From NCBI GenBank assembly GCA_018241225.1, contig JAFEEG010000018.1, positions 46,650 through 110,649 on the forward strand: a stretch of 64,000 bases of DNA. The letters are read 5' to 3'. Below, piece after piece: positions 7,186-27,229 of the stretch. Position 1 is the first letter of the stretch. Each line of letters opens with the position of its first letter. A model generated the notes under the pieces. That model was not told the DNA's origin. It saw only the letters and a list, made by a program, of their open reading frames with translations, and made no database searches. The translations under genes and the position numbers were made by a program. The DNA comes from Pseudomonadota bacterium (GTDB lineage Bacteria > Pseudomonadota > Gammaproteobacteria > Burkholderiales > Burkholderiaceae_C).

Positions 7186-7223
7186 CCGGCCAAGAGTCGA
7201 GCAGCCGGTCTCTGACGGCGGAT

Positions 7224-7794: not shown

Positions 7795-7808
7795 ACACTG
7801 GAGTAACC

Positions 7809-8063: not shown

Positions 8064-8377
8064 AACGCGGCGACATCTGGCTGGTGAATCTTGACCCCAC
8101 CGTAGGCAGCGAAATCAAGAAATCGCGCCCCTGCGTGGTGGTCTCGCCTTCTGAGTTGAACGACCATCTGCGCACGGTCATCGTGGCGCCGATGACCTCC
8201 AAAGGCTTTGCGGCCCCGTTTCGTGTCGCGATAACGCACGGCGGCACCAAAGGCTTGATCCTGCTGGATCAGGTCCGGACGGTAGACAAGGCGCGCCTGG
8301 CCAAGAGGTTAGGCGCGGTTTCCACGAAGACGCTGACGGCGGCCTTGAGCACACTGCAGGAGGTTTTCGCCGAGTAG
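8060..8377 (+). CDS. mazF: MazF/PemK-type endoribonuclease toxin
   Basis: 105 residues from GTG 8060 (a TTG at 8057 is also in frame). Family motifs are all present: KRGDIWLVNLDPTVGSEIKK (with the GD.W and P..G.E features of the RNA-binding loop), RPCVVVSP, and the T-S/A-R region around MTSK and LLDQVRTVD. Full length for MazF. Expected to cleave mRNA at short specific sequences when MazE is lost. Nothing suggests inactivation. Confidence 0.92.
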   Translation: MKRGDIWLVNLDPTVGSEIKKSRPCVVVSPSELNDHLRTVIVAPMTSKGFAAPFRVAITHGGTKGLILLDQVRTVDKARLAKRLGAVSTKTLTAALSTLQEVFAE

Positions 8378-12836: not shown

Positions 12837-13051
12837 GCTTCGATGGTAGCGACCCGACGACGTCTTTCCCCACTCTGGCGTTACTGCGCAGCCGCGCACT
12901 GCACAGTGGAACGGGCGTCTTCAAACCATGCATTCAGACGTCTCCATTCAAAACACGCACATCCCAACTGCGGCTCGTAGACCTTGACAACGCTTTCTGA
13001 TTTCACGTCAGCAGGTAGAACATCCGGAAGCGATAACCTTGTCTTGGTTGT

Positions 13052-14461
13052 TCAGTTCCTGTGAAGCATCTTGGCTGCGAGGCGCAGCTGTTCGCTGAAC
13101 CCGGGCGCGGTCAAGTGCGCTCGCGGATAGGACTTCACATCGTTGCTCGGCGCGCCGTCGGCAGTCTGGCGTGCTCCTGTGACAGGCCCGTCCAGTCCCG
13201 GGCGCTGCGCCTCGCCCTTTGTCAGACCTGCATCCGTGAGCGAGAACAGCGACGGATCAGGTAGCAGGCCATCGGCACCGAGCGACACGCGGCCGTGCCG
13301 CCCCGTGAGACGCGCCAGTTCGAGCTGCGCCGCCAGCTGGTTTTCTCGCACCACCTCGCCGACAAACTGAGCCGCAACCTGCCCCAGGCCGGCGCCGAGC
13401 GAAGACGGTGCGAGCAGGCCGCGGTCGATCACCATGTCGAGGCGGGTGCCGTCGGAAGACGCCTGCTCCAGCCGGTCGATGAATGCGCTCTGGCGCACCA
13501 CCGGCTGCGCGAAGATCCCGGGCTCGTAGCCTAGTTCGTGCGCATGCGGCTCGGGCCAGAAGAACAGGCGCTGGAAGTACAGCGGGTCGCCGTTGTCGAT
13601 GCGCGGCGCCGAAATGTCCAGGTGAATGGTCAGCTGCGCCAGGTCGGTGGCGCCGGCCCGGTCCACCAGCGTATAGGTGAACACGTCCTGCAGGACCTGC
13701 CCGAAGCCGGCGGCCGCCAGCACCTCGGGGTTGGTCATGTCGATGCTATAGGTGTAGCTGCCGTCGGCATTGAGCACCAGCGTTCCGTAGCGGCCCGCCA
13801 GGGCCTGGCCGATCACACCCGCCGTGCCGCTGCCCGCTTCCGCGCCCGTGCGCACCGCGCCCACGTGCAGCGCGTCACCGCCGTCCACGTCGGAGTCGTT
13901 GGGCAGGACGTTGCCCGTGGCTTGCGGCGCCACCACCTGGTCGGTGGCGACATTGCTGTCGTCGCGCGCGACCGGGTTGTCGTTGGCGCCCTGCACCACG
14001 ATCACCAGGTTTGCACGGGAGGTGGCCCCCGCCGTGTCGCTCATGAGGTAGCTGACGCTCTCGGTCAGCGTCTCGCCGCTGGTGCGTATGGCCTGCACCG
14101 CCGCGTTGTTGTTGTCCACCACGTAGCGCCAGATGCCATCGGCGTTGATGACCAGCGAGCCGTAGAGGCCGGCAATGGCGGCGCCTGCATCGCCCACCAC
14201 GCCGGTGCCGGCGCTGGTGTAGTTGACGACATGTTTGGTTTCGCCGTTGGCGACGCTGTCGACGTCGGTGTCGTTGTTCGGCACATTGCCGAGCGAATCG
14301 CTGCCGGGGGTGCCGTTGTTGATGCCGCCGGCTTCAACGGCAACGCCCGCGTCGTCGCGCTCAACCGGGATGTCGTTGGCGCCATGCACCGCAATGACAA
14401 ACATGGCGCTGTCGGTCTGGCCACCCGGATCGCTCATCGTGTAGGTGAAGAAATCCTGCAG
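13052..14461 (-). pseudogene. VCBS/cadherin-like repeat adhesin, C-terminal part (5' truncated)
   Basis: About 465 residues without a credible start. Two and a half repeats of about 100-120 residues carry the VCBS hallmarks: GANDxPVARDD, 'LPNDSDVDGGD', 'GRYGTLVLNADGSYTYSID', and 'LQDVFTYTLVDRAGATD'. A non-repetitive C-terminal region follows (DPLYFQRLFFWPEPHAHELG and on). Such domains occur in very long RTX/type I-secreted adhesins. Upstream of about 14465 homology ends abruptly at an HTH relic, so only the 3' end of the gene survives. Confidence 0.75.
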
Positions 14462-14495
14462 GACGTCGCATCGGCTGACGTCCGAGTGTGTGATG

Positions 14496-14606
14496 TACGT
14501 GAACGCGTCCGACCTTCCGCGTGGCCAGCATGCCATTGGTGATCGTGCGGCGCACGTGCGGCTCGGTCCGGCCGGCGTGCCGGGCGGTTTCGTCGATCGT
14601 TAGGCC
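14496..14606 (-). pseudogene. Excisionase-like helix-turn-helix (HTH_17) relic
   Basis: On the minus strand one frame reads LTIDETARHAGRTEPHVRRT, then ITNGMLATRKVGRVHV. This is the pattern of MerR/excisionase-type HTH_17 domains (LT-x-x-E-A-A-x-x-L-G...V-R-R-x-I-x-x-G-x-L-x-x-x-K-V-G-R). The frame has no start codon nearby and runs out of frame into the VCBS fragment. It is a second gene scar at the same breakpoint. Confidence 0.5.
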
Positions 14607-14732
14607 CTGGGGCCAGAGGGATCGACGCCCACCTGATGCACCACGAAGTCGACGAGTCAGGCGGAAGATCCCGTGCTCGTGAGCGACCCCACATCGCCCG
14701 CATCATCGGGTCGACGGTATTGCCGCCGCCGG

Positions 14733-14762
14733 TGATCCGCCTTCCTCCAGGGTGCGTAGAAG
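14733..14762 (+). promoter_or_regulatory. ECF (RpoE/ChrR-type) promoter candidate P1
   Basis: TGATCC (14733-14738), 18-bp spacer, TAGAAG (14757-14762), 26 bp before the start of the first lipid-modification gene. TGATCC is the -35 element recognised by the RpoE of the RpoE-ChrR singlet-oxygen system in Rhodobacter. The same -35/spacer design recurs at three more places around the sigma-factor locus. Confidence 0.65.
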
Positions 14763-14787
14763 CTTGACACGGCACCAACGAGGTTCG

Positions 14788-15837
14788 ATGAATCCGCAGA
14801 GCGCTTTCGCCATCCGCTGGCTCGAGCAGGGCCTTGTGCCCGACCGGCTGGTACGCCTGGGCATGCGGCGGCTGCTCGCCCAGCGCCTGAAGGAAGTGCG
14901 CAGCGGCGACGCCACCGCCGCTGCCGAATTGACCCAGGCGTTTGCGCAGTCCCTGCACGCCGCGCCACTGGCCCTGCACGCCGACCTGGCCAACGCGCAG
15001 CACTACGAGCTTCCGGCCGCCTTCTTCGAGCGCGTGCTCGGGCCCCGGCTGAAATACAGCTGCTGCCTGTGGGAGCATCACGAAGACTCGAGCCTGGCGC
15101 AAGCCGAGATGGCGGCCCTCGTGTCCACCTGTGTACGCGCCCAGTTGTCCGATGGGCAGGAAGTGCTGGAGCTGGGCTGTGGCTGGGGCGCACTGAGCCT
15201 GTGGATGGCTGAGCACTACCCCGCGAGCCGTATCACGGCGCTGTCCAATTCGGCGTCCCAGCGCGCCTTCATCGAGGCCCGCGCACGGGCGCGCAAACTG
15301 GAGAATCTGCGCGTCGTCACGCGCGACTTCAGCGACTGCGACCTCCCGTTTCGGCACTACGACCGCGTCGTGTCGCTCGAGATGTTCGAGCACCTTCGCA
15401 ATTGGCCGCGCGCCTTTGCGCGGGTCGCGAGCTGGCTGCGTCCGGGAGGCCTCTTCTTCCTGCATGTTTTCGCGCATCGCGAGACGCCCTATAGCTTCGA
15501 GGTACGCGACGCTAGTGACTGGATGAGCCAGCACTTCTTCACCGGCGGGATGATGCCCAGCGACGACCTGCCGTTGTACTTCCAGGATCACCTGCGCCTG
15601 GTGCAACGCTGGCGCTGGGACGGGCGGCACTACGCCCGCACCGCGCGCGCCTGGCTCAGGAACATGGATGCGCACCGTGACGCTCTTCTCCCCGTCGTGC
15701 AGGCCGGACACGGCGGCGCGGGGGAGCTGTGGTGGATGCGCTGGCGACTGTTCTTCATGGCGGTGGAAGAACTGTTCGACTGGAATGAAGGACAGCAATG
15801 GTGGGTAGGCCACTATCTCTTCGAGCCGCGCGCGTGA
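14788..15837 (+). CDS. CFA-synthase-like SAM-dependent methyltransferase
   Basis: 349 residues. SAM-binding motif VLELGCGWGALS (127-138), then the VSLEMFEHLRNW acidic loop and C-terminal region ending in W-x-VGHYLF, all as in the shorter cyclopropane-fatty-acid-synthase-like family. It lacks the N-terminal lipid-binding domain of true CFA synthases and has HYELP in place of HYDLG. Probably methylates or cyclopropanates unsaturated acyl chains of membrane phospholipid. First gene of a five-gene run, behind an ECF-type promoter; next gene overlaps (GTGA). Confidence 0.85.
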   Translation: MNPQSAFAIRWLEQGLVPDRLVRLGMRRLLAQRLKEVRSGDATAAAELTQAFAQSLHAAPLALHADLANAQHYELPAAFFERVLGPRLKYSCCLWEHHEDSSLAQAEMAALVSTCVRAQLSDGQEVLELGCGWGALSLWMAEHYPASRITALSNSASQRAFIEARARARKLENLRVVTRDFSDCDLPFRHYDRVVSLEMFEHLRNWPRAFARVASWLRPGGLFFLHVFAHRETPYSFEVRDASDWMSQHFFTGGMMPSDDLPLYFQDHLRLVQRWRWDGRHYARTARAWLRNMDAHRDALLPVVQAGHGGAGELWWMRWRLFFMAVEELFDWNEGQQWWVGHYLFEPRA

Positions 15838-16415
15838 GGTGTGCACCGGCCGCATCGCGGCGCGGGCTCAGTTTGCGACTGAAGCTCGGCCATTTCGCGC
15901 TGTTTCAGCTGGCCTGGCTGGCCATGGTGATGGGCGCAGCGCATGGCCATGCGTACCTGGGCTGCCTTGCCATCGCGCCGGTGCTGGTCTTGCACCTGGC
16001 GCTGGCGCGGTACCCGGGGCGCGAGGTGCTGCTGCTTGGCAGCGTGACCTTGGTGGGGCTGGCCGCAGAAACCCTGCAACTGCGCCTTGGACATGTCCGC
16101 TACGCGGGCGTGGATGCCGAATCCGCCTGGCCCGCGCCTTGGCTGCTGCTGCTCTGGACGCTGCTCGGCACGACACTCAACGTCAGCATGCGCTGGCTGC
16201 GCGGGCGCCCCCTGCTGGCGGCCTGTCTCGCTGCCATTGGCGGACCGGCAGCATTCGCGAGCGGCGCGAGACTGGGCCCCGCGCAGTTCGTCGACGCGAC
16301 CGCCGCGCTCGTCAGCTCCTCCTTGCTTTGGTCGGTCCTGCTGCCTTTGATGCTGGCCTTGGCGCGACGCCTGGATGGGTTCGTACCGGTGAGCTTCGGG
16401 AGCTCGAATGCATGA
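15834..16415 (+). CDS. DUF2878 family membrane protein
   Basis: 193 residues from GTG overlapping the preceding stop (15834-15837). Five hydrophobic segments, and the family block WPAPWLLLLWTLLGTTLNVS followed by GGPAAFASGARLG. DUF2878 proteins are small inner-membrane proteins repeatedly found with CFA-like and DUF1295 genes; no activity is proven. Its stop overlaps the next gene by 8 bp, so it is translationally coupled on both sides. Confidence 0.85.
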   Translation: MRCAPAASRRGLSLRLKLGHFALFQLAWLAMVMGAAHGHAYLGCLAIAPVLVLHLALARYPGREVLLLGSVTLVGLAAETLQLRLGHVRYAGVDAESAWPAPWLLLLWTLLGTTLNVSMRWLRGRPLLAACLAAIGGPAAFASGARLGPAQFVDATAALVSSSLLWSVLLPLMLALARRLDGFVPVSFGSSNA

Positions 16416-17202
16416 GTTACTCGCATGCGCCCTGCCCGGCCTGGCCGTCAGCGCGGCGTTGGCGCTGACGGCCTGGGCCTGGAGCCTGTGGCTTCGCGAC
16501 GTGAGCATCGTCGATCCCTTCTGGCCCTTCATGGTCTCCGGGGCGGGGCTCGCTCAGGCCATGTGTTTGCCGACGCACCGGCCGCGCAGTGAACTGGCGC
16601 TGGGATTGGCATTGGCCTGGGCGCTGCGTCTGGGCTTGCACCTCGCCCGCCGGCGGCGCGGCCATGGCGAGGACCGCCGCTACCAGGCCATCCGGGCCCG
16701 CAACCAGCCCGGCTTCGCATTCAAGAGCATCTACCTCGTGTTTGGTTTGCAGGCAGTGCTGGCGTGGTGCGTCTCTGCCCCACTGGGCGTAGCGGCCGCG
16801 TCCACCAGGCCCCTGAACGCGCTCGATCTTGCGGGTGCTGCGCTAGCCTTGTTCGGTCTGCTGTTCGAGGCTCTCGCCGATGCCCAGCTCGCGCGCTTTC
16901 GCGCGCGGTGTACGCCGCAAGCAAAGGTGATGGACCAGGGACTATGGCGCTACAGCCGGCATCCCAACTATTTCGGCGAAGCCTGTATCTGGTGGGGGCT
17001 GGGCGTGGTGGCGCTCGCAGGCGGTGGGCCTGGCGCGGTCTGGAGCCTGGTGTCGCCGCTGCTCATGACCGTGCTGCTGCTCAAGGTTTCGGGCGTGGGC
17101 CCGTTGGAGGCCGACATGGTAGGCCGCAACGAAGCCTATCGCGCCTACATCGCGCGCACGCCTGCCTTCGTGCCCGGCAGGCCGCGGGAGGACACGTTCT
17201 GA
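16408..17202 (+). CDS. DUF1295 (steroid 5-alpha-reductase-like) membrane protein
   Basis: 264 residues with six to seven membrane segments. The signature GLWRYSRHPNYFGEACIWWG (about residues 174-193) is that of DUF1295, related to 5-alpha-reductase and isoprenylcysteine methyltransferase folds; the N-terminal VDPFWP motif is also typical. The fold reduces or methylates lipid-like substrates, fitting the neighbouring lipid enzymes. Stop and next start overlap (TGATG). Confidence 0.88.
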   Translation: MHELLACALPGLAVSAALALTAWAWSLWLRDVSIVDPFWPFMVSGAGLAQAMCLPTHRPRSELALGLALAWALRLGLHLARRRRGHGEDRRYQAIRARNQPGFAFKSIYLVFGLQAVLAWCVSAPLGVAAASTRPLNALDLAGAALALFGLLFEALADAQLARFRARCTPQAKVMDQGLWRYSRHPNYFGEACIWWGLGVVALAGGGPGAVWSLVSPLLMTVLLLKVSGVGPLEADMVGRNEAYRAYIARTPAFVPGRPREDTF

Positions 17203-17849
17203 TGCCGTCAATCAAACCGCAAGCCCTCGCAGCCGCCGCGCTGCTGGGGGGAATCTTTCAGCTGGCCAACGCGCAGGAATGGAACTTCACCGTCCTGCTC
17301 GACGGCGAGCCGATCGGCATGCATCGCTTCGTCGTTCGCACCGATGCCGCGCAGGGTGAAGGTCGCCGCAGCCTGCGCAGCCAGGCCGAATTCCGCGTTC
17401 GATTGCTAGGCGTTGCGCTTTACAGCTACCGACACGCTGCCCAAGAGCTTTGGCGCGGCGACTGCCTGGAGCGACTGGACGCGCAAACCGACGATGACGG
17501 CGAGCGCAGCCAGGTGCATGCGCGGGAGGTCGCCGGCGGCCTGCAGGTGAACTCGCCGCTGGGGAGCTCGCTCGCCGCGGGCTGCCTGATGACCTTCGCC
17601 TACTGGAACCCGGCCCTTCGCCGACAGCAGCGCCTTCTCAACGCGCAGACAGGGCGCGTCGAGCAGGTGACGTGGCAGCGCATGGACATCGCCACGCTGA
17701 CCGTGCAGGGCCAGGCATTGAGCGCCACGCGCTGGCGCCTGTCCGGCACCGAGCGGCCCCTGGACGTCTGGTGGACGGAAGATGGCCGCTGGGTCGGCCT
17801 CGATGCCACCGTGCGCGGTGGGCGCCAGCTGAGCTACCGCTTGCGCTGA
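17202..17849 (+). CDS. DUF6134-like exported protein
   Basis: 215 residues. Signal peptide (residues 1-24, cleaved after ANA), then a beta-rich domain: WNFTVLLDGEPIGMHRFVV at the start of the mature protein, 'LMTFAYWNP', and 'DVWWTEDGRWVGLDATVRGG' at the end. The architecture (antiparallel sheet forming a lipid-binding-type barrel) and its position suggest a periplasmic protein acting on or carrying a lipid intermediate. Coupled to the DUF1295 gene by a 1-bp overlap. Confidence 0.7.
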   Translation: MPSIKPQALAAAALLGGIFQLANAQEWNFTVLLDGEPIGMHRFVVRTDAAQGEGRRSLRSQAEFRVRLLGVALYSYRHAAQELWRGDCLERLDAQTDDDGERSQVHAREVAGGLQVNSPLGSSLAAGCLMTFAYWNPALRRQQRLLNAQTGRVEQVTWQRMDIATLTVQGQALSATRWRLSGTERPLDVWWTEDGRWVGLDATVRGGRQLSYRLR

Positions 17850-17888
17850 CGCGCGGCGCAATGGATGCAGCAACCCAAGGAAACACCC

Positions 17889-18314
17889 ATGCGACGACTG
17901 GCACTGGCATGGCTTCTGGCCGCCGTGATCTTCCTGACCCTGGACGCCCTATGGCTGGCCTTCATGACGCCCCGCCTGTACCGCTCCGCGCTCGCAGGAT
18001 TGCTGCGCGAGGACTTCGACCTTTTGCCGGCCCTGCTCTTCTACCTTCTATACCTGAGCGGCATCGCGTGCCTCGCCATCGCACCGGCACTGCGTAGCCT
18101 GCGCGTTGCAAGCGCCGCATGGCGCGGCGCGCTGCTGGGCCTGGTGTCCTACGGAACCTATGACCTCACCAACCAGGCCACGCTGGTCGGCTGGCCGTGG
18201 CATGTCACAGTGGCCGACTTGGCCTGGGGCGGCGCCGCATCAGCCGTCACATCGGCCCTGTCGTGCGCGGCGACCCTGGCCATCGAACGACGGTGGGCGG
18301 GTACTCGCCGGTAG
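17889..18314 (+). CDS. DUF2177 family membrane protein
   Basis: 141 residues from ATG 17889, chosen for the AAGGA 8 nt upstream over an earlier ATG at 17865. Four membrane helices and the family motif YGTYDLTNQATL plus WP..VTVADLAWG. DUF2177 proteins are inner-membrane proteins of unknown activity that travel with RpoE/ChrR clusters. Ends 6 bp before the convergent anti-sigma gene. Confidence 0.88.
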   Translation: MRRLALAWLLAAVIFLTLDALWLAFMTPRLYRSALAGLLREDFDLLPALLFYLLYLSGIACLAIAPALRSLRVASAAWRGALLGLVSYGTYDLTNQATLVGWPWHVTVADLAWGGAASAVTSALSCAATLAIERRWAGTRR

Positions 18315-18320
18315 TAGGCG

Positions 18321-18965
18321 CTACATGCCGATCAGGGCGCCCATGGTGCGTGCGAGCCAGCCTTCGAACAGCACCTTTCCCTCGACCGACGCCAGGCAGA
18401 TGCACTCGCCATCGGCATTCGTCACCGGCTGGTGCCGCACGCCAGCGTCAGTCTCGTCGAAATCACCGGCGGCGAAGGTGCTTCGGCCGTCGTCGAAGGC
18501 GCCGTACAACACCTGCGTCAGCTCGCTCTGGCTGTGGGTATGCCGTGGCAGCATGCGGCCAGCGCCGATGCGCAGCATGAAGACATTGGCATCGGCCGCA
18601 CCGGGCAGCGCGACCCGGTTCCAGTACATGCCCGGGCCCATCCAGTGCCAAGCGCTGACGCTGCAGGCGGCCATGGCCTGCGGCCAAGCGGTGGGCAGAT
18701 CAGGCTTGGCGCCCTGAGCAGCTTGCAGCTGTGGCGCCGTAGGCGCGTCGATCGCGGCGAGCGTGCGCTCCAGCGCATCGGGCGCCAGCTCTGCCGGTGC
18801 GAGCGATTCGAGCAGAACGCCGCCCAGCGCATCCAGGCGCCCCATCCGCTGCTGACAATGCGGGCAACCTTCCAGGTGCACCTCCAGCAGCAGTCGATGG
18901 CCGGCGCCGAGCGTGCCGGCGGCATGGGCCAGCAACAGGGCGTCGTCGGGATGATGTCGAATCAT
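18321..18965 (-). CDS. chrR: ChrR-family zinc-dependent anti-sigma factor
   Basis: 214 residues. The N-terminal zinc-binding anti-sigma domain has H5, H30 and the C34-P-H-C37 pair, the His-His-Cys-Cys pattern of ChrR. The C-terminal cupin domain carries the HTHSQSE metal site and a later His (VRHQP), which in ChrR senses singlet oxygen or organic hydroperoxide. Its ATG overlaps the sigma-factor stop (18962-18965), so the two are made together. Predicted to hold the sigma factor inactive until photo-oxidative stress. Confidence 0.9.
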   Translation of the reverse strand: MIRHHPDDALLLAHAAGTLGAGHRLLLEVHLEGCPHCQQRMGRLDALGGVLLESLAPAELAPDALERTLAAIDAPTAPQLQAAQGAKPDLPTAWPQAMAACSVSAWHWMGPGMYWNRVALPGAADANVFMLRIGAGRMLPRHTHSQSELTQVLYGAFDDGRSTFAAGDFDETDAGVRHQPVTNADGECICLASVEGKVLFEGWLARTMGALIGM

Positions 18966-19558
18966 GGCTCCAGTCCGTTCAGCTTGCGGCGCAGCTGGCT
19001 CAGCGCGAGCCGCACACGCGATTTCACCGTTCCAAGCGGGATGCCCAATTCGACGGCAATCCGCGCGTGCGGGTGGTCCTCGAAAAACGACAGCTGCAGC
19101 ACACGCTGCTGCTCCGCCGGCAGGGTGGCCAGCGCCGCGCGCACGCCGCGCTCGCACTCCTGGCCGAACACCTGCGCCTCGGGCGTGGGTGCGGGGTCGG
19201 CCTCCTCGGTCATCGCGCCCTCCTCAGGCGCAAGGCCGACCTGCTCCATGCGGTGCCCCAGGCGGCGGTAGTGGTCGACACGCAGGTTGCGCGCCACCGT
19301 GTAGATCCAGGTCGAGGCAGCCGCCTGTTCCGGGTCGAAGCTGGCGGCCTTTCGCCAGACATTCACCATGGCCTCCTGCGCAAATTCTTCGGCCTGCGCA
19401 TCGCTGCTGCCCGAGCGCACCAGGTAGCTTTTGAGGCGCGGGGCAAAGTGCTTGAAGAGCGCCGCGAAAGCCTGCCGGTCGGCATCCTTCCCCACCGCGA
19501 CCAGCAGTTGGTTCAACTGTTCGCCCGATGGCACGAAGCTACGACTGTCTGGCGGCAT
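18962..19558 (-). CDS. rpoE: ECF sigma factor, RpoE/ChrR-controlled group
   Basis: 198 residues from ATG at 19556-19558. Sigma-2 region: DRQAFAALFKHFAPRLKSYL, EFAQEAMVNVWRKA, STWIYTVARNLRVDHYRR. Sigma-4 region: ALATLPAEQQRVLQLSFFED, GIPLGTVKSRVRLALSQLRR. An in-frame ATG at 19633 also exists but lies at or before the transcription start expected from promoter P3, so a downstream start is preferred. Overlaps the anti-sigma gene. Expected to transcribe its own operon and the flanking lipid genes. Confidence 0.9.
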   Translation of the reverse strand: MPPDSRSFVPSGEQLNQLLVAVGKDADRQAFAALFKHFAPRLKSYLVRSGSSDAQAEEFAQEAMVNVWRKAASFDPEQAAASTWIYTVARNLRVDHYRRLGHRMEQVGLAPEEGAMTEEADPAPTPEAQVFGQECERGVRAALATLPAEQQRVLQLSFFEDHPHARIAVELGIPLGTVKSRVRLALSQLRRKLNGLEP

Positions 19559-19637
19559 GGCGATGGACAGGTAGGGGGGTAGCGTCCGCCCCGAGGCGGG
19601 GAGGCTCGCCGCAGGCTGTCGCATGGATGTCATGTCG

Positions 19638-19667
19638 ACTGTACGCAAAGGCAAGGCGATTGGATCA
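19638..19667 (-). promoter_or_regulatory. ECF promoter candidate P3 (autoregulatory, sigma-anti-sigma operon)
   Basis: Minus strand TGATCC at 19667-19662, 18-bp spacer, TACAGT at 19643-19638. Transcription would begin near 19631. It sits back-to-back with P2, the two -35 hexamers being 24 bp apart. Confidence 0.6.
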
Positions 19668-19691
19668 CAACGCCCTGCCAGCCGCTGCGAC

Positions 19692-19721
19692 TGATCCAAG
19701 ATGCGGACGACAACGTAAAGG
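19692..19721 (+). promoter_or_regulatory. ECF promoter candidate P2 (COG2907 operon)
   Basis: TGATCC (19692-19697), 18-bp spacer, TAAAGG (19716-19721), 24 bp before the start codon at 19745. Same hexamer and spacing as P1 and P3. Confidence 0.7.
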
Positions 19722-19744
19722 AAGCAGTTCACCGCGTCCACGGC

Positions 19745-21127
19745 ATGTACCAACCGCACTCAGACTCGCTCCCGCCTGCCCCTGCGGCCCTGCCAGCCCG
19801 CGGTGCGCCCTTGCAGGTCGCCGTGATCGGCAGCGGCGTCTCCGGGCTCTCGGCCGCCTGGCTGCTGGCCCAGCGCCACAAGGTGCGGCTATTCGAGTCG
19901 TTGCCGCGCGCAGGCGGCCACAGCCACACGGTGGACGTGCAGGTCGGCCGGGGCAAGGTCGCGGTGGACACCGGCTTCGTCGTCTACAACGAGCCAACCT
20001 ACCCGAACCTCACCGCACTCTTCGCCCATCTGGGTGTGAACACGCAACCCAGCGACATGTCCTTCGCGGTCAGCCTGGACGGCGGCTGCCTCGAATACTC
20101 GGGCAGCGGCCTGGCGGGACTGTTGGCTCAGCCGGTCAATGCGCTGCGCCCGCGCTTCTGGCAGATGCTGCGCGAGCTCGTACGCTTCTATCGCGAGGCT
20201 CCGGGTGAGGCCGCGAGCTTCGGATTGCGTCCGCTGGACCAGTACCTGGACGCACGCGGCTACGGGCGCGCCTTTCGGGAGGACCATCTCTACCCGATGG
20301 CGGCGGCAATATGGTCGGCCCCCGCGGCGCGCATCGGCAGCTATCCCGTCGAAGCTTTCGTGCGCTTCTGCGAGAACCATCACCTACTGAGCCTGGGCGG
20401 GCGCCCTCCCTGGCGTACGGTGACCGGCGGCAGTCGCCACTACGTCGACCGCCTGGTCGCCCGGCTGGGCGGCAAGAACCTGCAACTGGACTGCGAGGCA
20501 CTGCAGCTCGCACGTGGCGCCGAGGGCGTGCACGTGCGCACGGCCTGCGGCTGGCATACGTGTCGCTTCGACGCGGTGTTGATCGCCACCCATGCAGACC
20601 AGGCACTGCGAATACTGGACGCACCCAGCGACCAGGAGCGCAATCTGCTGGGTGCCTTCGCCTACAGCCGCAACCTTGCAGTACTGCACACCGACACGCG
20701 CCTGATGCCGCGCCGCCAGCGGGTGTGGTCGAGCTGGAACTACCTCGGCGCGCGCGACGCCGACGGCGCGCCGCCGTGCGTGAGTTACTGGATGAATCGC
20801 CTGCAGCCATTGGCCACCACAACACCGGTGATCCTGACGCTCAATCCGCCGCACGACCCAGCCCCTGGCCACCTGCTTCATCGGCAGCTCTATGAGCATC
20901 CCTTGTTTGATGCCGCGGCCCTTCGCGCCCAGCGGGCCCTGTGGAGTCTGCAGGGCCAGCGCCGCACCTGGTTCTGCGGCGCCTACTTCGGCGCAGGCTT
21001 TCATGAAGACGGCCTGCAGGCCGGCCTGGCAGCGGCCGAAGCACTGGGCGCCGTGCGCCGCCCGTGGAACGTGCCGGACGAATCGAAACGCATCATGCTA
21101 CCCCACAGCCTGGCGAGCACGCCATGA
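19745..21127 (+). CDS. COG2907 FAD/NAD(P)-binding amine-oxidase-like flavoprotein
   Basis: 460 residues. FAD-binding Rossmann motif VAVIGSGVSGLSAAW (25-39) with the Glu of FESLPRAGGHSHT, plus the family segments VDTGFVVYNEPTYPNLTALF and FCGAYFGAGFHEDGLQ at the C-terminus that closes the FAD site. Members of this group sit in RpoE/ChrR regulons and are thought to oxidise or desaturate acyl chains of membrane lipids. First of three overlapping genes (ATGA to DUF1365). Confidence 0.88.
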   Translation: MYQPHSDSLPPAPAALPARGAPLQVAVIGSGVSGLSAAWLLAQRHKVRLFESLPRAGGHSHTVDVQVGRGKVAVDTGFVVYNEPTYPNLTALFAHLGVNTQPSDMSFAVSLDGGCLEYSGSGLAGLLAQPVNALRPRFWQMLRELVRFYREAPGEAASFGLRPLDQYLDARGYGRAFREDHLYPMAAAIWSAPAARIGSYPVEAFVRFCENHHLLSLGGRPPWRTVTGGSRHYVDRLVARLGGKNLQLDCEALQLARGAEGVHVRTACGWHTCRFDAVLIATHADQALRILDAPSDQERNLLGAFAYSRNLAVLHTDTRLMPRRQRVWSSWNYLGARDADGAPPCVSYWMNRLQPLATTTPVILTLNPPHDPAPGHLLHRQLYEHPLFDAAALRAQRALWSLQGQRRTWFCGAYFGAGFHEDGLQAGLAAAEALGAVRRPWNVPDESKRIMLPHSLASTP

Positions 21128-21924
21128 GCGACAACGCCTGTGCCTTGTACGACGCAACCGTGATGCACCAGCGCCTGCGGCCGCTGCGCCATCGGCTGCG
21201 CTATGGCCTGTTCTGCCTGCTGCTTGACCTGGACGAATTGCCGCGGCTGCCAGAGCGCCTTCGCCTCTTCTCGGTCAACCACTTCAACCTGTTGAGCCTG
21301 TACGAGCGTGACCATGGCGCGCCGCCCGGCACGTCCCTTCGCGCACACGTCGATGCCTTCCTGGCGCAGAGCGGCATCGAAGCCGGCGGACCGGTGCGGC
21401 TGCTAGCCATGCCGCGCATCCTGGGCTTTGCCTTCAACCCGCTGTCGATCTATTTTTGCGAGCACAAGTCGGGCGGACTTGCCGCCATCGTCTACGAGGT
21501 CCGCAACACCTTCGGCGAACGGCATCGCTATCTCTTCGAGGTGGCGCCGCAGCAGGCGCGCGAGGCGGTGCTACGGCACACCTGCGCCAAGCGGATGCAT
21601 GTCTCGCCCTTCATGGACATGGCGATGCGGTACGACTTCGAGCTTGCACCACCCACACCGGAACGAGAGGGCGTGGATATGGCCATCAGGACCTGCGATG
21701 CGCAAGGCTCGGTGCTGGTCGCGCAGTTGCATGCTCGGCGTCGCGAGCTGAACGACCGCAGCCTGCTGCGCTCCTTCCTGTCCCATCCCGCGCTGGGCCT
21801 GAAGGTGCTAGGAGCCATCCATTGGGAGGCCTTGCGCCTGCTCCTGAAGGGCGCACCCTTCGTCCGCCATCCGGGGCCGCCCGACGAGCCGATGACGGTC
21901 ACCCGATTGAACGACACCCCATGA
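21124..21924 (+). CDS. DUF1365 family protein
   Basis: 266 residues. Contains the family blocks RHRLRYGLFCLLLDLDELP, FNLLSLYERDHG, 'AMPRILGFAFNPLSIYFCEH' and 'KRMHVSPFMDMAMRYDF'. DUF1365 proteins lie between the COG2907 flavoprotein and CFA synthase in many proteobacteria, exactly as here, with ATGA overlaps on both sides. Activity unproven; a role in processing the same modified fatty acid is the usual inference. Confidence 0.9.
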   Translation: MSDNACALYDATVMHQRLRPLRHRLRYGLFCLLLDLDELPRLPERLRLFSVNHFNLLSLYERDHGAPPGTSLRAHVDAFLAQSGIEAGGPVRLLAMPRILGFAFNPLSIYFCEHKSGGLAAIVYEVRNTFGERHRYLFEVAPQQAREAVLRHTCAKRMHVSPFMDMAMRYDFELAPPTPEREGVDMAIRTCDAQGSVLVAQLHARRRELNDRSLLRSFLSHPALGLKVLGAIHWEALRLLLKGAPFVRHPGPPDEPMTVTRLNDTP

Positions 21925-23141
21925 ACACGAGCTCGATTCAGACGCCCGCCAAGGCGTCCTCTCTCTTCGCGTGGTCGCCGTTGGGGTTGTTCGAGCAACT
22001 CCTGGCGCGGCTGCATTGTGGGAGCCTGCGCGTGGAACTCCCCGATGGCCGCGTGATCGGCCAGCAATGCAGCGTCGACGGACCGCACGCCACACTGCAG
22101 TTGCGGCGGTGGCGGGCGCTGCGCTGCCTGATGACACAAGGCGATCTAGGCCTGGCCGAAAGCTACCGCGACGGCGACTGGTCCACGCCCGACCTGGTGG
22201 CGCTCCTGGAGTTCGGCGTGCGCAACGAGGCCGCCTGGGGCGCCGCCTTGCAGGGCAGCCGCCTGGCCCAGTTGATTGCGCGCTGGCGCCATGTGCTCAA
22301 CGCCAACACCCGACGCGGCAGCCGGCGCAACATCTCGGCGCACTATGACCTGGGCAATGACTTCTACGCCGCCTGGCTCGATCCGCGCTTGATCTATTCC
22401 GGTGCTCTCTACGGACCTGGAGACGCGACGCTGGAGCAGGCCCAGTCGCGCAAGATGGCGCGCATCGCGCAGTTGCTGGCGTTGGAGACGGGCCAGCACG
22501 TTCTCGAAATAGGCTGCGGCTGGGGCGCCCTCGCGATCGATCTGGCACGCAGGTACGGCGTCCGCGTGACGGGCGTCACCCTGTCGCAGCGGCAACTCAC
22601 CCACGCCCGGGCCGAAGTCGCGCGGGCCGGTCAGGACGGCGCCGTGCAACTGCACCTGCAGGACTACCGGGACCTGAAAGGTCGCTTCGACCGGATCGTC
22701 TCCATCGAGATGCTCGAAGCCGTGGGGGAAGCCTACTGGCCGCTGTACTTCGACACGCTGCGAGAGCGCCTGCGGCCAGGCGGCTTTGCCGTGCTGCAGG
22801 TGATCCTGATCGACGACGCACACTTCGCGAACTACAGGCGCGGCACCGACTTTATCCAACGCCACATCTTCCCCGGCGGCATGCTGCCAAGCGCCACAGC
22901 AATTCGCGAACAGGCCGCCCGAGCCGGGCTACGGATCGAGTGCGCCGACCGGTTCGGCGCGAGCTACGCGCGTACGCTGGTCGAATGGCGCAGGGCCTTC
23001 GACGCCGCCTGGCCACAGCTGTCGCAACAAGGATTTGGCGATGCCTTTCGCAGGCTCTGGCACTACTACCTCTGCTACTGCGAAGCAGGCTTTCGCGCCG
23101 GCCGGATCGACGTGGCGTTGTTTCGCCTCTCGCATGAATGA
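21921..23141 (+). CDS. Cyclopropane-fatty-acyl-phospholipid synthase family methyltransferase
   Basis: 406 residues, full length. Has the lipid-binding N-terminal domain, the ISAHYDLGNDFYAAWLD block (138-154), SAM motif VLEIGCGWGALAIDLA (194-209), and the bicarbonate-site region IVSIEMLEAVGEAYWPLYF; C-terminal HYYLCYCEAGFRAG is also typical. Transfers a methylene or methyl group from SAM to the double bond of membrane phospholipid acyl chains. With the upstream flavoprotein it may make a further oxidised methylated lipid. Last gene of the P2 operon. Confidence 0.9.
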   Translation: MNTSSIQTPAKASSLFAWSPLGLFEQLLARLHCGSLRVELPDGRVIGQQCSVDGPHATLQLRRWRALRCLMTQGDLGLAESYRDGDWSTPDLVALLEFGVRNEAAWGAALQGSRLAQLIARWRHVLNANTRRGSRRNISAHYDLGNDFYAAWLDPRLIYSGALYGPGDATLEQAQSRKMARIAQLLALETGQHVLEIGCGWGALAIDLARRYGVRVTGVTLSQRQLTHARAEVARAGQDGAVQLHLQDYRDLKGRFDRIVSIEMLEAVGEAYWPLYFDTLRERLRPGGFAVLQVILIDDAHFANYRRGTDFIQRHIFPGGMLPSATAIREQAARAGLRIECADRFGASYARTLVEWRRAFDAAWPQLSQQGFGDAFRRLWHYYLCYCEAGFRAGRIDVALFRLSHE

Positions 23142-23243
23142 TCACCATGCTCACGGACGACCGGTGGATGAGATCGTGCGCATCCCCTACTCTCGTCCTG
23201 CAAGGCGCCCGTATGCCAACCTTGCCGACGGTTACACCTACCG

Positions 23244-23274
23244 TGATCCTTCAGCCTCCCTAACGACGTACAGG
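23244..23274 (+). promoter_or_regulatory. ECF promoter candidate P4
   Basis: TGATCC (23244-23249), 19-bp spacer, TACAGG (23269-23274), 48 bp before the start of a small exported protein and about 100 bp after the CFA gene. The -10 resembles that of P3 (TACAGT). The one-base-longer spacer lowers confidence. Confidence 0.5.
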
Positions 23275-23322
23275 CGGAGAGAGGCATTGCATATCGCAAT
23301 CACTTCTTCGAGGAGCCCTATC

Positions 23323-23661
23323 ATGAAATCCTTCGCAGCCGGCGCTGTGGTGCTGTGTCTTGGTGCATCCGCGTATGCACAGCAGAACATTCCAGGATCG
23401 ACCGTGCCCCCCAATACTCCCGGGTACACCATGGGAAAGTCGGAGGACGCTGCGGAGCGCCGAAAGCAAGCGAAACCGAAAGGACAGGTGCGACCTGAAG
23501 CCGGGGACGCTGCCAACAACGTCGAAATCAGCGGCGTTCCCAACGACCGTGGCGCGATTGCCGGTGAGAAGCGCGTGCAATCGCGCGATGCCCGCCGGCC
23601 CAACGCGCGCAAAACAACTCAAGGCGGAACGCCAGACGATCCATTGGCGCCCGCAAAGTAG
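23323..23661 (+). CDS. Small exported protein
   Basis: 112 residues. ATG 23323 follows GAGGAGCCC. Signal peptide (1-19, MKSFAAGAVVLCLGASAYAQ), then a hydrophilic, Lys/Arg/Gly/Pro-rich, probably disordered chain without cysteine. No family recognised. An ECF-type promoter upstream would make it a periplasmic member of the RpoE/ChrR response. Confidence 0.6.
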   Translation: MKSFAAGAVVLCLGASAYAQQNIPGSTVPPNTPGYTMGKSEDAAERRKQAKPKGQVRPEAGDAANNVEISGVPNDRGAIAGEKRVQSRDARRPNARKTTQGGTPDDPLAPAK

Positions 23662-23849
23662 GTTAGCTGGGGAAGACTCTCTGCGTTGTCGCGCGAGATG
23701 AGGTTGCTGTCCACCGCCCCTGGGCCGGGGCCTCGAGCAGAAAAAAGTATCTTGACGGCCGAACCGCCGTCCTTCGGATCAAACCCGGGAATGGCGCGGC
23801 CCGGCCAATCCCGACGCAACTCTTCGTCCAACGGTCCGAGCAACTTCAT
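23660..23849 (-). pseudogene. Uracil-DNA-glycosylase-like protein, N-terminal fragment
   Basis: From ATG at 23847-23849 the frame reads MKLLGPLDEELRRDWPGRAI, PGFDPKDGGSAVKILF, then APGPxAV-like and FISRDN-like blocks ('ARGPGPGAVDSNLISRDNAE'). This is the start of the UDG-like family (DPxDGG...LFLLEAPGPxAVxSGFxSRDN). After ISRDN the homology stops and the remaining two-thirds of the gene is missing. In place of the family Glu-Ala-Pro the fragment has Ala-Arg-Gly. Broken gene; no function expected. Confidence 0.55.
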
Positions 23850-23967
23850 GCCTGAGGACCGCCCTGCCTGGTGCGCAGGCGACGAACCAGCGCATCGATG
23901 ATGATGCCGGACGCGGTGTCGGCGCTCGCTACGTTCGGTCCTGGTGCGAAGTCGCCGTCCTCCTGGG

Positions 23968-24369
23968 CTAGCTGAGGTGCTTGAAGAACTCCTTGTCGAA
24001 CAGCTTTCCCTTTGCTGGGTCATGCTTGCTGAGATACGCGCTGACTGCTCTGACGAACGGCGTTGGCTCCGATGCGACCCACCCAACGAACATCTCGTCC
24101 TCAATCTTGGTTGCTGTCGGCATCCAGCTCGACGCGAGTTCCTTGACCAAGGCAGGGTCCGGATGTTTCGGGTCGACATTCTCAACAGTGACGCAAAGCG
24201 GCTGAACTCCTGCTTTGTTCAGTTCCTCGACCCACAGGTTTCGCTGCGCGAGGGTCTCGGTGGCCAGGATCGTCAGCGCCCCCTGATATGCAGTCCGCAT
24301 CTGGTGATGGTCATCCACGCTCAACGTGACACTCTTGATTTCCTTGGTCGGCACTTTGATTTCGAACAA
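23968..24369 (-). CDS. Hypothetical protein with strong SD and TTG start
   Basis: 133 residues. The start is TTG at 24367-24369, chosen because a perfect AGGAGG lies 6 nt upstream on the minus strand; the first ATG would cut off 23 residues. Soluble, mixed alpha/beta: FEIKVPTKEIKSVTLSVDDH at the start, 'LAQRNLWVEELNKAG' and 'SSWMPTATKIEDEMFVGWV' in the middle, charged C-terminus. No family recognised. Confidence 0.6.
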   Translation of the reverse strand: MFEIKVPTKEIKSVTLSVDDHHQMRTAYQGALTILATETLAQRNLWVEELNKAGVQPLCVTVENVDPKHPDPALVKELASSWMPTATKIEDEMFVGWVASEPTPFVRAVSAYLSKHDPAKGKLFDKEFFKHLS

Positions 24370-24492
24370 CTGGATCCTCCTAGTGAAGATTCGCGAACCT
24401 GAACCTATCAGGGGCGATCGGCGCGCGGTGCTGCGGCATGTCAATCTAGGCGAGTGACCAGGCGCCGTGGGATTGTCGGCGCTGCAAGCTGT

Positions 24493-24861
24493 TCAGCAGC
24501 GCCCCTTTTTCGCCTGCCCCGGGGGGCAATGACCGTTACCATGGCCGCCCCTGGGCTTCCAGTCGCCCTCCACCCAGCGATAGCCCCCATCTGCGTGCAC
24601 CCAGCGGCCAGGCGCATAGTCGTAGTCGGGGCGGGCCTGCTCCCAGCGACCGGGGCGCCAAGCGTAGTTGTTGTTCGACCAGTACCAGTTGCCCTGAACC
24701 CAGACCTGTCCAGGGCGGATGGCAGGCACCGGCTCATAGCGCGGCGGTGGCGGTGCCACAGCAATGAGGCCGGGCACGTTGATGTTCACAGACACCTGCG
24801 CCGTTGCAGACAACGGGACAACGACAGCGGCGAAGGCCGCGGCAAGAAACAGAGTTCGCAT
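24493..24861 (-). CDS. YXWGXW-repeat exported protein with CPPGQAKKGxC tail
   Basis: 122 residues. Signal peptide 1-22 (cleaved after TAQ region), a Pro-rich segment, then repeats of the form VWVQGNWYWSNNNYAWRPGR and GRWVHADGGYRWVEGDWKPR, which are YXWGXW-type Trp/Gly repeats found in periplasmic and outer-membrane-associated proteins. It ends CPPGQAKKGRC. Two Cys in the tail could pair. The divergent lipoprotein at 25024 ends with almost the same tail. Confidence 0.8.
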   Translation of the reverse strand: MRTLFLAAAFAAVVVPLSATAQVSVNINVPGLIAVAPPPPRYEPVPAIRPGQVWVQGNWYWSNNNYAWRPGRWEQARPDYDYAPGRWVHADGGYRWVEGDWKPRGGHGNGHCPPGQAKKGRC

Positions 24862-24900
24862 GGTATTTCCTCTGGAGACGATCAGTCAGGCGACACGATG

Positions 24901-24928
24901 CATTTTTGGGAAAACTATCCCAAAAATG
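24901..24928. promoter_or_regulatory. Perfect 11-bp inverted repeat between divergent envelope genes
   Basis: CATTTTTGGGA (24901-24911) / TCCCAAAAATG (24918-24928) with a 6-bp AAACTA loop. It lies 40 bp upstream of the YXWGXW gene start and about 95 bp upstream of the small lipoprotein start. Operator for both genes or a bidirectional terminator-like hairpin are both possible; the position between two start codons favours an operator. Confidence 0.5.
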
Positions 24929-25023
24929 AGACTACATTCTAGGCAGGTGGCTCAGTGGTGGCGGATTGGCAACCGCTAGGCCTTGAAGAGATGTATTCAC
25001 TGCAGTCGCGTGTGCTCGACACC

Positions 25024-25176: not shown

Positions 25177-25291
25177 AGAATTGGCAATGACTGCAGTCGC
25201 GATGCCCCCGGTCGATGTGGTCCCCAGGACCTAGACATCCGGCAGAACCGGTGATCGAATGGCCACCCCCACTATCCGTAGGGAGTCCGAG

Positions 25292-27229
25292 ATGGCGAAA
25301 CTGGGTTGGCTGGCAACTGTGCTCGCACCTTTGGCAATCACCTTGGCGGGCTGCAGTGGTGGTGGTGGTGGCGGTGGCGCTTCTTCCTCGGCCATGGCGC
25401 CTCCCGCCGGCTTGGTCGAGCGCGACGAATCACCGATCTACGCCGTCGGCGTTCCAATTGTGGCGGAGACGGTGAGTAATAGCGGGGGCGCCATCACGAA
25501 GTGCTCGGTGTCTCCACCCCTGCCACCAGGTCTGACCCTCGATCCGCAGGACTGCACTATCAGTGGCACGCCGACCGGAGTTAGCCATGCCACGATCCAC
25601 ACGGTCACCGGCAGCAACTCGGCAGGCAGCGCCTCCACCCGGGTCGAGATCGAGGTCAAGGATGAAGTAGTCCCACCAGACGGACTGGACTACCTGGATC
25701 GGTCGGTCATCTACCCAGTCAATGCCTTTATCACGCCGAATACACCGGTCAGCACTGGTGGCGAGATCACTCAATACAGCGTGTCTCCGGCACTGCCCGC
25801 GGGGCTTGCCATTGACCCGAAGACCGGCGTCATCACCGGCACCCCCACTGAGGTGACGGCGCCGGCGGTCTACACGGTGACGGGCGCCAACAGCGCTGAC
25901 AGCGTCCAAGCCTTGCTCACCCTCGAAGTGGCCTCACAAGCGGTGCCGCCGGTGGGCCTCGTGTACGTGGATCGGCTGCCCGAATACATCGTGGGCGTGC
26001 CAATCACATACAACGAGCCCGTGTACTCCGGCGGCGAGGCTACAGAGTTTTCTGTATCCCCTGCGCTGCCGGCGGGCTTGAGCCTCAACACGCAGACAGG
26101 GGTCATCAGCGGCACGCCAACCACTGAAACGCCGCAGACGACGTTTATCGTGATCGCCAGTAACGTTGCGGGAAGCGCTACGACCCAGTTCACCATCACC
26201 GTGGCCGCTCCCCAGGTTGGCGAGTGGCTGCCCGCCGATGCGATGAATCTGGGGCGCTTCCGCCACACCGCCACACTCCTGCCCGATGGGCGAGTCCTGG
26301 TGGCGGCTGGAAACAGGAAGCAGGCGACGTCTTCAGCCGAGTTGTTTGACCCTGCGGCGAACAACTGGACCCGCACGGGCAGTCTTGGACGCAGCAGACA
26401 ATCGCACTCCGCGACGCTTTTGCCCGACGGCCGTGTGCTTGTCGCGGGGGGATTCGGTACTGGTGGAGGCAATGCGCTATCTTCGACGGAACTGTATGAC
26501 CCAGCGACAGGCAACTGGTCCCAGGCCGGCAGCCTCATCCATGAGCGTGACAGTCATACGGCCACGCTGCTGCGGGATGGCCGCGTGCTGGTGGCAGGTG
26601 GTGAAGGCCAGGGTGGTAGCAAGGGCGCCTTGTCTTCCGCTGAACTCTACGATCCTGCCACGAACACATGGTCGCCCACCGGCAGCCTCGGCCAGCCGCG
26701 AAAGCAACATATAGCGATCCTGCTGCCAAGCGGCAAGGTCCTGGTCGTGGGTGGTGAAGACGCAGAGGACGGTGCGCTGGCATCTGCCGAACTGTTCGAT
26801 CCAGCCAGCGGGACGTGGTCTCCCACCGGAAGCTTGAGTCAGCCTCGCTACGCCTATGCTGCCGTGCAGTTCAGCGACGGGCGGGTGCTCGCAGTCGGAG
26901 GGTTCGACGGGACGCACGCGCTCGCAAGCGCCGAAATCTATGACTTGGCGGCCGGAACGTGGTCAAGTACAGGCAGCCTGCGACAGGCCCGTGATTTCCA
27001 CAGCGCCACGCTACTTTCTAGCGGTCGAGTGTTGGTGGCCGGCGGTGCCGAAGGCAGCGACCTGTTCGCGAGCGAAGTCTATGACCCGGCAACTGGCGGC
27101 TGGTTCCAGGTTGGCAGTCTTGGACAACTTCGCGAGCAACACACGGCCACATTGCTATCAGACGGCGCGGTCCTCGTCGCAGGAGGAATTGGACGAGGAA
27201 TCTTGTCCTACACCGAACTGTTCCGTTAG
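25292..27229 (+). CDS. Large lipoprotein with three putative Ig (He_PIG) domains and Kelch repeats
   Basis: 645 residues. Lipobox LAGC (Cys21) and a poly-Gly linker. Three ~90-residue Ig-like repeats follow, each with 'SVSPALPAGLxIDPxTGVITGTPT' type cores (about residues 40-310). Then six Kelch-type blades (RHTATLLPDGRVLVAAGN, ELFDPAANNWTRTGSL) to the end, enough for a beta-propeller. Surface-anchored binding protein is the likely role. Downstream 660 bp lacks an intact gene. Confidence 0.85.
   Translation: MAKLGWLATVLAPLAITLAGCSGGGGGGGASSSAMAPPAGLVERDESPIYAVGVPIVAETVSNSGGAITKCSVSPPLPPGLTLDPQDCTISGTPTGVSHATIHTVTGSNSAGSASTRVEIEVKDEVVPPDGLDYLDRSVIYPVNAFITPNTPVSTGGEITQYSVSPALPAGLAIDPKTGVITGTPTEVTAPAVYTVTGANSADSVQALLTLEVASQAVPPVGLVYVDRLPEYIVGVPITYNEPVYSGGEATEFSVSPALPAGLSLNTQTGVISGTPTTETPQTTFIVIASNVAGSATTQFTITVAAPQVGEWLPADAMNLGRFRHTATLLPDGRVLVAAGNRKQATSSAELFDPAANNWTRTGSLGRSRQSHSATLLPDGRVLVAGGFGTGGGNALSSTELYDPATGNWSQAGSLIHERDSHTATLLRDGRVLVAGGEGQGGSKGALSSAELYDPATNTWSPTGSLGQPRKQHIAILLPSGKVLVVGGEDAEDGALASAELFDPASGTWSPTGSLSQPRYAYAAVQFSDGRVLAVGGFDGTHALASAEIYDLAAGTWSSTGSLRQARDFHSATLLSSGRVLVAGGAEGSDLFASEVYDPATGGWFQVGSLGQLREQHTATLLSDGAVLVAGGIGRGILSYTELFR

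Follow-up and report, generated by a model that had tools for sequence, protein, structure and literature searches.

TGATCC-type promoters are used by RpoE of Rhodobacter sphaeroides, an ECF11-type (extracytoplasmic function) sigma factor that is paired with ChrR. We analyzed a 64,000-nucleotide stretch of a Burkholderiales genome (the window), which holds a regulon of this known kind with a variant architecture. The window corresponds to C9:46650-110649 on its home contig, C9, in a genome of 6.41 Mb; the copy of the regulon inside it was designated module A, and a further copy upstream of the window on the same contig was designated module B. The distinctive points are the doubled module, the geometry of the rpoE start, the pairing of a FufM-type gene with a DUF1295 gene, and a parallel in a green alga.

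In R. sphaeroides and Rhodopseudomonas palustris, UfaD is a desaturase with a predicted NAD-FAD-binding domain, UfaM is an acyl methylase, and the DUF1365 protein UfaO forms the furan ring (PMC7380195). The R. palustris UfaD-UfaO-UfaM triad was shown to be necessary and sufficient for furan fatty acid, and a second methylase, FufM, which is 26% identical to UfaM, was alone enough for 9D5-FuFA production in R. sphaeroides (PMC7380195). In the presence of singlet oxygen, ChrR turnover in R. sphaeroides requires the furan fatty acid genes (PMC6852236). Like the R. sphaeroides regulon (PMC6852236, PMC7380195), the window has the same RpoE-ChrR pair with all metal ligands as well as UfaD-, UfaO-, and UfaM-type enzymes, but here ufaM lies inside the ufaD-ufaO operon, the module exists in two copies, and it includes an additional FufM-type operon with DUF2878-DUF1295-DUF6134-DUF2177. 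R. palustris has the same ufaD-ufaO-ufaM order (RPA2569-2571) and a separate, low-identity CMAS-type second methylase (FufM, RPA0924); by locus number it lies far from ufaDOM, whereas the presumed relative in the window shares the locus with ufaDOM and is preceded by a promoter of the same type (PMC7380195).

In Stenotrophomonas maltophilia (rpoEc-chrR-chrA, smlt2375-2367), there is likewise a divergent, sigma-dependent lipid cluster with a flavin adenine dinucleotide (FAD) oxidoreductase, two genes of the cyclopropane fatty acid (CFA) synthase type, hypothetical membrane proteins, and a lipocalin, but there the cluster is a single one of nine genes that includes an acyl-CoA desaturase, and chrA stands in the sigma operon; neither of these two is among the module genes here (PMC11832516). 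RNA sequencing, done once, found rpoEc, chrR, and the nine-gene cluster up 32- to 697-fold without ChrR and back down without the sigma factor (PMC11832516). A riboflavin-responsive cluster of Aeromonas salmonicida unites an FAD oxidoreductase, DUF1365, cfa, and DUF2878 in one predicted operon; it differs in having SDR and NTF2-like genes in front, and the available portion of the paper names no DUF1295 or DUF6134 (PMC10012899). The SAK1-dependent singlet-oxygen genes of Chlamydomonas include CFA1, CFA2, a DUF1365, a DUF1295, a DUF2177, and a fasciclin-like gene, and CFA2 is also annotated as coclaurine N-methyltransferase in another table (PMC4067076). Going by the names in the tables, each of these families is also represented in module A or B (fasciclin in B only), but the alga is a eukaryote with another regulator, and DUF2878, DUF6134, and ChrR are absent from the portion of the source at hand.

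The RpoE-ChrR pair and its promoters

Sequence and profile comparisons place the products of rpoE (18962-19633, minus strand) and chrR (18321-18965, minus strand) in the ECF11 RpoE-ChrR type, in agreement with the initial annotation. The best PDB match of the sigma factor was R. sphaeroides RpoE (2q1z_A, E 2.1e-38; runner-up E 2.7e-17), while the zinc anti-sigma factor with its cupin-like domain best matched R. sphaeroides ChrR of the solved RpoE-ChrR pair. ChrR scored 180.7 bits with TIGR02451 (cut-off 124.5) and fell below the cut-off of the narrower ChrR model NF051881 (166.6 bits vs. 300). Residues H5, H30, C34, and C37 of its anti-sigma domain aligned with R. sphaeroides H6, H31, C35, and C38, and H142, H144, E148, and H178 of its cupin domain aligned with H141, H143, E147, and H177, so that the cupin Glu and His required for the R. 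sphaeroides singlet-oxygen response are conserved. All eight zinc ligands are also kept in the alignment of the module B ChrR. The strongest match to the ChrR cupin in this genome (PF12973, 77 bits) lies outside both modules, at C14:171469-171756 on the minus strand.

The four promoter sites proposed in the initial annotation were found in place, with gaps from TGATCC to TA of 18 nt at P1 (14733-14758, plus), P2 (19692-19717, plus), and P3 (19642-19667, minus) and of 19 nt at P4 (23244-23270, plus). CG precedes TA at all four sites, which gave the sharpened form TGATCC-N16-CGTA for P1 to P3 and TGATCC-N17-CGTA for P4. The ECF11-type site P1 precedes the FufM-type operon, with 29 nt from CGTA to the ATG, P2 the ufaD-ufaO-ufaM operon, P3 the rpoE-chrR operon, and P4 a small gene. 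The form TGATCC-N16/17-CGTA occurred four times in the window against 0.15 expected, a number reached in 0 of 100 shuffles, and TGATCC by itself was unenriched (25 vs. 31.6 expected). This motif form is not new, since the targets of ChrR/SigmaE in Vibrio cholerae had already yielded a similar deduced motif, TGATC-N18-CGTAT (PMC5241685).

Across the genome, the loose motif of the initial annotation proved unspecific, with 91 matches for TGATCC-N17/18/19-TA, and was dropped for the CGTA form, which stood above chance; with N18 only, 19 genome matches were listed, six of them at the modules. A pattern with TANNNT was also discarded (one match vs. 0.43 expected). The strict motif had ten sites in the whole genome (six N16, four N17; two N15 sites on C3 and C10 were left uncounted), and eight of them sit within the 37 kb of C9:33049-69919 (binomial P ~1e-16 for a 41-kb stretch). 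The other two, both N17, are on C11 within long reading frames. An additional site with TGATCT stands 5′ of the module B copy of the P4 gene.

Conservation was surveyed as TGATC[CT]-N16/17-CGTA within 250 nt 5′ of a gene, for which at most 0.025 were expected per shuffle. The motif preceded rpoE in all 25 Burkholderiales relatives in which this gene was found (it was missing from 15 additional stretches) and in 46 of the 54 other loci, ufaD in 34 of 70 other loci, and DUF2177 in 7/25 Burkholderiales and 13/50 other loci. Operon-internal starts served as negative controls and had no site, neither chrR (0/25 and 0/49) nor ufaM (0/35 and 0/64), although gene calls at the ufaM and FufM-type starts mixed FufM-type and UfaM cross-matches. 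On these counts, the predicted promoters are far above chance and conserved. In seven relatives, DUF2177 has its own site (L035 8107, L036 8008, L041 7978, L042 8029, L153 10187, L156 10531, and L164 10553), so this gene can be transcribed separately from the FufM-type operon. In Variovorax sp. OV329 (L149, 3914 to about 4560), a TGATCC-N16-CGTA site was also seen 5′ of a small lipoprotein-like gene, a further candidate member of the regulon. An Rfam scan of window positions 13000-25000 returned no family at the gathering threshold.

The ATG of rpoE at 19633 lies only 8 nt 3′ of CGTA, and the first in-frame start was 8-9 nt past CGTA in 69 of the 74 loci having a site. This was so in 26 of 27 Burkholderiales sequences, both own copies included (11 nt in the remaining one), and in 43 of 47 non-Burkholderiales loci, five of these with GTG. 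The N-terminal peptide read from this start is common to both modules; it contains LS[IV][VA] in 20 of the 27 Burkholderiales rows and has LTVV or LKIV at that place in the other seven, and the first 75 codons are stop-free in all 27. Over the first 22 codons of close pairs, differences by codon position were 12, 13, and 23, a weak third-position excess. A similar ECF element of S. meliloti, ending in CGTC, is 9 nt 5′ of a mapped start (PMC3616915). The most likely start of rpoE is thus predicted at 19633, and because it follows CGTA so closely, the leader of the rpoE mRNA should be absent or very short. A literature search on leaderless mRNA together with ChrR found nothing relevant.

Operons of the regulon and the inducing signal

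The operon behind P2 comprises, on the plus strand, ufaD (19745-21127) for a homologue of the FAD-dependent fatty acyl desaturase (Pfam Amino_oxidase, NAD_binding_8), ufaO (21124-21924) for a DUF1365 homologue of the furan-forming oxygenase (PF07103, 267.3 bits), and ufaM (21921-23141) for a homologue of the CFA-synthase-like acyl methylase (CMAS, 282.5 bits), which is 3′ of ufaO like RPA2569. The operon behind P1, also on the plus strand, starts with a FufM-type S-adenosylmethionine methyltransferase (14788-15837; Pfam CMAS, 134.5 bits), followed by a DUF2878 protein whose start overlaps the preceding stop (15834-16415; PF11086, 105.7 bits), a DUF1295 protein predicted to be a steroid-5-alpha-reductase-like membrane reductase (16408-17202; PF06966, 218.7 bits), a probably exported, beta-rich DUF6134 protein (17202-17849; PF19630, 155.9 bits), and a DUF2177 membrane protein (17889-18314; PF09945, 133.5 bits). 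A single regulon of ten genes from 14788 to 23661 had been proposed initially; the shared promoter and the two lipid operons bear this out, but 11 genes were counted, and the regulon continues beyond the window, where the second copy has its own sites.

The families were counted in 80 named loci, the best of at least 549 confirmed loci by UfaD similarity; since 21 of the 80 have short flanks, the counts are lower bounds. At least 79 carried DUF1365, 68 a UfaM-type gene, 64 RpoE, 62 DUF1295, 60 DUF2177, 59 ChrR, 47 a FufM-type gene (counted as non-overlapping best matches, which excludes UfaM cross-matches), 12 DUF6134, and 3 DUF2878. Our own genome and 120 relatives, 121 in all, were searched for DUF6134, found in 41 (40 above the cut-off), and UfaD, found in 74 (E up to 1e-60). 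In counts that ignore kinship among genomes, UfaD was present in 39 of the 41 genomes with DUF6134 versus 35 of the 80 without, and in a sample from another family (149 genomes, 37 with a FufM-type match, 30 of these 37 loci fetched), it was present in 35/37 FufM-type genomes versus 32/112 without the FufM-type gene. In these 35 genomes, the FufM-type gene and UfaD were on different contigs or at least about 300 kb apart in 19 and within about 5 kb in 16. A CMAS-type enzyme distinct from UfaM thus sits in a subset of the UfaD genomes, as expected for FufM.

Taken together, these data suggest the following mechanism. ChrR would hold the ECF11-type sigma factor until an oxidant removes it, and the free sigma factor would act via TGATCC-N16/17-CGTA promoters on its own operon, ufaD-ufaO-ufaM, the FufM-type operon, and the gene of the small exported protein. 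UfaM would methylate cis-vaccenoyl chains of membrane phospholipids, UfaD would make the methyl-diene, UfaO would form the furan ring by inserting oxygen, and a second methyl group would come from the FufM-type enzyme. The furan lipid would scavenge the oxidant; in line with a proposal made for R. sphaeroides, it may also influence ChrR turnover in return.

We hold this explanation as a whole with good confidence, while the following points weigh against it. Only 5 of 26 Burkholderiales loci have the strict site 5′ of ufaD. Nine of the 33 fetched relatives' loci carry FufM-type-DUF1295-DUF6134 without rpoE, chrR, or a strict site in stretches of 17-20 kb, and their genomes have a UfaD homologue elsewhere (~47% identical), so the FufM-type operon is not linked to the switch everywhere. 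The FufM assignment draws on the gene neighbourhood, on co-occurrence, and on a resemblance to coclaurine N-methyltransferases. Finally, the homologous system of Stenotrophomonas left singlet-oxygen tolerance unaltered (PMC11832516).

The last point leads to the alternative that in this non-phototroph the switch is real but senses a cue other than singlet oxygen, namely superoxide, organic peroxides, or metals, which we regard as a serious possibility, though less likely than not. In Stenotrophomonas, tolerance to menadione (superoxide) was what changed (PMC11832516), whereas the two cupin residues (Glu and His) on which the singlet-oxygen response of R. sphaeroides depends are conserved here, Vibrio ChrR/SigmaE answers blue light (PMC5241685), and the Chlamydomonas gene set answers singlet oxygen (PMC4067076). 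As Stenotrophomonas shows the sigma dependence but no effect on singlet-oxygen tolerance, singlet oxygen is here no more than a candidate signal.

The gene behind P4 (23323-23661, plus strand) encodes a small, probably exported protein with no Pfam match, which among the 121 genomes was seen in the window's genus only. That this gene lies outside the regulon and P4 is a chance match appears unlikely to us, even though the family occurs in 70 of the 121 genomes, mostly away from the module, and neither a third copy in our own genome (C36) nor the copy in G028 has a strict site 5′ of the gene. The orthologue of Variovorax sp. OV329 (G070) has a site with the same N17 spacing at the same distance, that of G058 has an N16 site, and the module B copy has the TGATCT site.

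A second, diverged copy of the module

The complete module B is located at C9:28784-39750, in opposite orientation and 22 to 33 kb 5′ of module A. Its order is small gene, UfaM, UfaO, UfaD, the divergent RpoE-ChrR pair, DUF2177, DUF6134, DUF1295, DUF2878, and FufM-type gene, with sites of its own. Ten protein pairs of the two modules are 49-77% identical and the small-gene pair 79%, while the DNA is 70% identical over an 8.5-kb inverted repeat, and 39 to 67% of the fourfold sites differ in ten gene pairs. The window's genome was alone among the 121 in having two DUF6134 or two UfaD genes; a complete, diverged second copy is new here and unique among the genomes searched. Beside module B, a fasciclin and a lipocalin gene were noticed behind their own TGATCC-N16-CGTA site (L031 14090-15751, C9:38089-39750), and the same pair is next to the module in G036 (L150) and G058 (L202).

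In a tree of eight concatenated proteins from 21 loci, module A joined Variovorax sp. OV329 (95/93) and module B joined G028 and G058 (99/99); an earlier tree of five proteins from 40 loci, without G028 and G058, had placed A with OV329 weakly (89/52). The two copies thus seem to stand for two sub-lineages, either united by transfer or retained since an ancient duplication. A recent duplication within this genome might be suspected from the position of both modules on one contig as an inverted repeat and from their pairing in only this genome, but it is rather improbable in view of the tree, which separates A from B, and of the low identity of the DNA and the many differing fourfold sites. The copies may have come together with the help of a mobile element. 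Outside the regulon, a 2.3-kb direct repeat (4923-7214, plus strand) with an integrase gene end, unknown genes, and SRAP is 83% identical in DNA to C9:26306-28635, which adjoins copy B, and it lies 7.5 kb 5′ of copy A.

Both sigma copies have LGIPLGTVKSRVRLAL in region 4 in common, a stretch taken for the recognition helix. Because this presumed helix and the promoter motif are the same for both, the two sigma circuits should act on each other's targets.

Some further features surround module A. Between the integrase-SRAP repeat and the module, two adjoining small frames (7761-8377) resemble, by eye, a MazE/MazF-type toxin-antitoxin pair; they are followed by a protein with a HipA-like C-terminal domain (8956-10308) and a frame at 11004 whose product, by eye, resembles a helix-turn-helix protein. 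A Cadherin-like/Ig-like repeat protein (13052-14536, minus strand), perhaps one piece of a larger adhesin-like gene, ends near P1, and a large repeat-type protein (25259-27229) contains a short internal repeat of 65% identity (26411-26847).

The lipid product and the unassigned families

UfaD, UfaO, and UfaM homologues, recognized by Pfam family and gene order, are united in one locus of the window in the same order as in R. palustris. Since UfaD has its counterpart in the FAD protein, UfaO in the DUF1365 protein, and UfaM in the CMAS protein at 21921, the predicted product of the operon is a furan fatty acid. The contrary reading, that the regulon yields cyclopropane or methyl-branched fatty acids and the UfaD and UfaO homologues perform another oxidation here, can appeal to the two CMAS-family genes in the module and to the Stenotrophomonas authors, who read their own cluster as CFA-synthase membrane lipid modification (PMC11832516), but it is quite improbable given that the triad has the R. 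palustris order, where it is necessary and sufficient for furan fatty acid (PMC7380195), and that UfaD and DUF1365 share the locus in 79 of the 80 named loci. For the furan fatty acid, no literature linking Variovorax to such lipids was found. A fold search with UfaO gave weak fatty-acid-binding-like and nitrobindin-like matches (best E 2.7e-4, query TM at most 0.33 among the matches listed), and because these are weak, we claim no cofactor.

The 14788 protein was closest in the PDB to plant coclaurine N-methyltransferases (6gkv, 232.7 bits), whereas the highest-scoring CFA synthase, 6bqc, reached 108.7 bits. The plant protein LIME1 is presumably coclaurine-N-methyltransferase-like. FufM is 38% identical to LIME1 (PMC10940516). 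From this similarity, the neighbourhood, and the co-occurrence, the 14788 protein is presumed to be FufM-like and was labelled FufM-type rather than FufM.

Five proteins had initially been listed as lacking an assigned reaction. This does not hold for DUF1365, which is UfaO (PMC7380195), but it does for DUF2878, DUF1295, DUF6134, and DUF2177, for which our literature searches gave no assigned reaction. The DUF1295 gene is within 700 nt of the FufM-type gene on the same strand in 45 of the 47 named loci with that gene, and within the same stretch of about 4 kb in 29 of the 30 loci fetched from the other family. A profile of 23 DUF1295 members matched a steroid 5-alpha-reductase (PDB 7c83, E 1e-5). 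Steroid 5-alpha-reductases reduce the double bond of an enone. DUF1295 is therefore probably a reductase acting on the same furan lipid, and since FufM alone sufficed for 9D5-FuFA (PMC7380195), it more likely acts after methylation than within it. Among the literature items listed, none joined DUF1295 to furan fatty acids.

The N-terminus of DUF6134 was read as a signal peptide, and its beta-rich model had a pLDDT (predicted local distance difference test) of 90.9. In Foldseek, the model weakly matched the DUF1849 barrel of Brucella, which we take to be EipB (6ntr; E 4.3e-5, template modelling score, TM, 0.56), and still more weakly VioE and the lipid carriers LolA or LprG; against PDB sequences, DUF6134 had one chance-level match (E 0.45). 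DUF6134 probably binds lipids in the periplasm.

The overlap with the Chlamydomonas gene set is a lead; no other outside evidence hints as strongly at a role of DUF1295 and DUF2177 in the singlet-oxygen lipid response. The common induction of DUF1295, DUF2177, and DUF1365 is partly in print as table rows (PMC4067076); no paper joining this link to the bacterial module was found in a search that left most subscription papers outside. On a more speculative note, the module might be the bacterial counterpart of a lipid kit against singlet oxygen that green algae also have, under a switch whose mRNA is leaderless or nearly so. DUF1295 and DUF2177 would then act on the furan lipid itself, and FufM and DUF1295 would form a make-and-mend pair: FufM would complete the dimethyl-furan lipid, and DUF1295 would reduce the reactive ene-dione that remains once this furan has quenched singlet oxygen, thereby clearing the membrane or ending the warning signal. 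This extended proposal is a tentative one, and we consider it doubtful in its full form.

Furan fatty acids are proposed singlet-oxygen scavengers and second messengers, and such regulons include membrane genes without an assigned role. In alpha- and betaproteobacterial loci, no more than 8-9 nt separate promoter and rpoE start, which suggests that the master switch is translated in a special way. Whether paralogous circuits stay separate or work as one could be tested in a genome such as this, where two diverged copies of the switch share one promoter motif. The pairing of the FufM-type gene with DUF1295, together with the co-induction in Chlamydomonas, would provide a concrete pathway and substrate for two unassigned families, DUF1295 and DUF2177.

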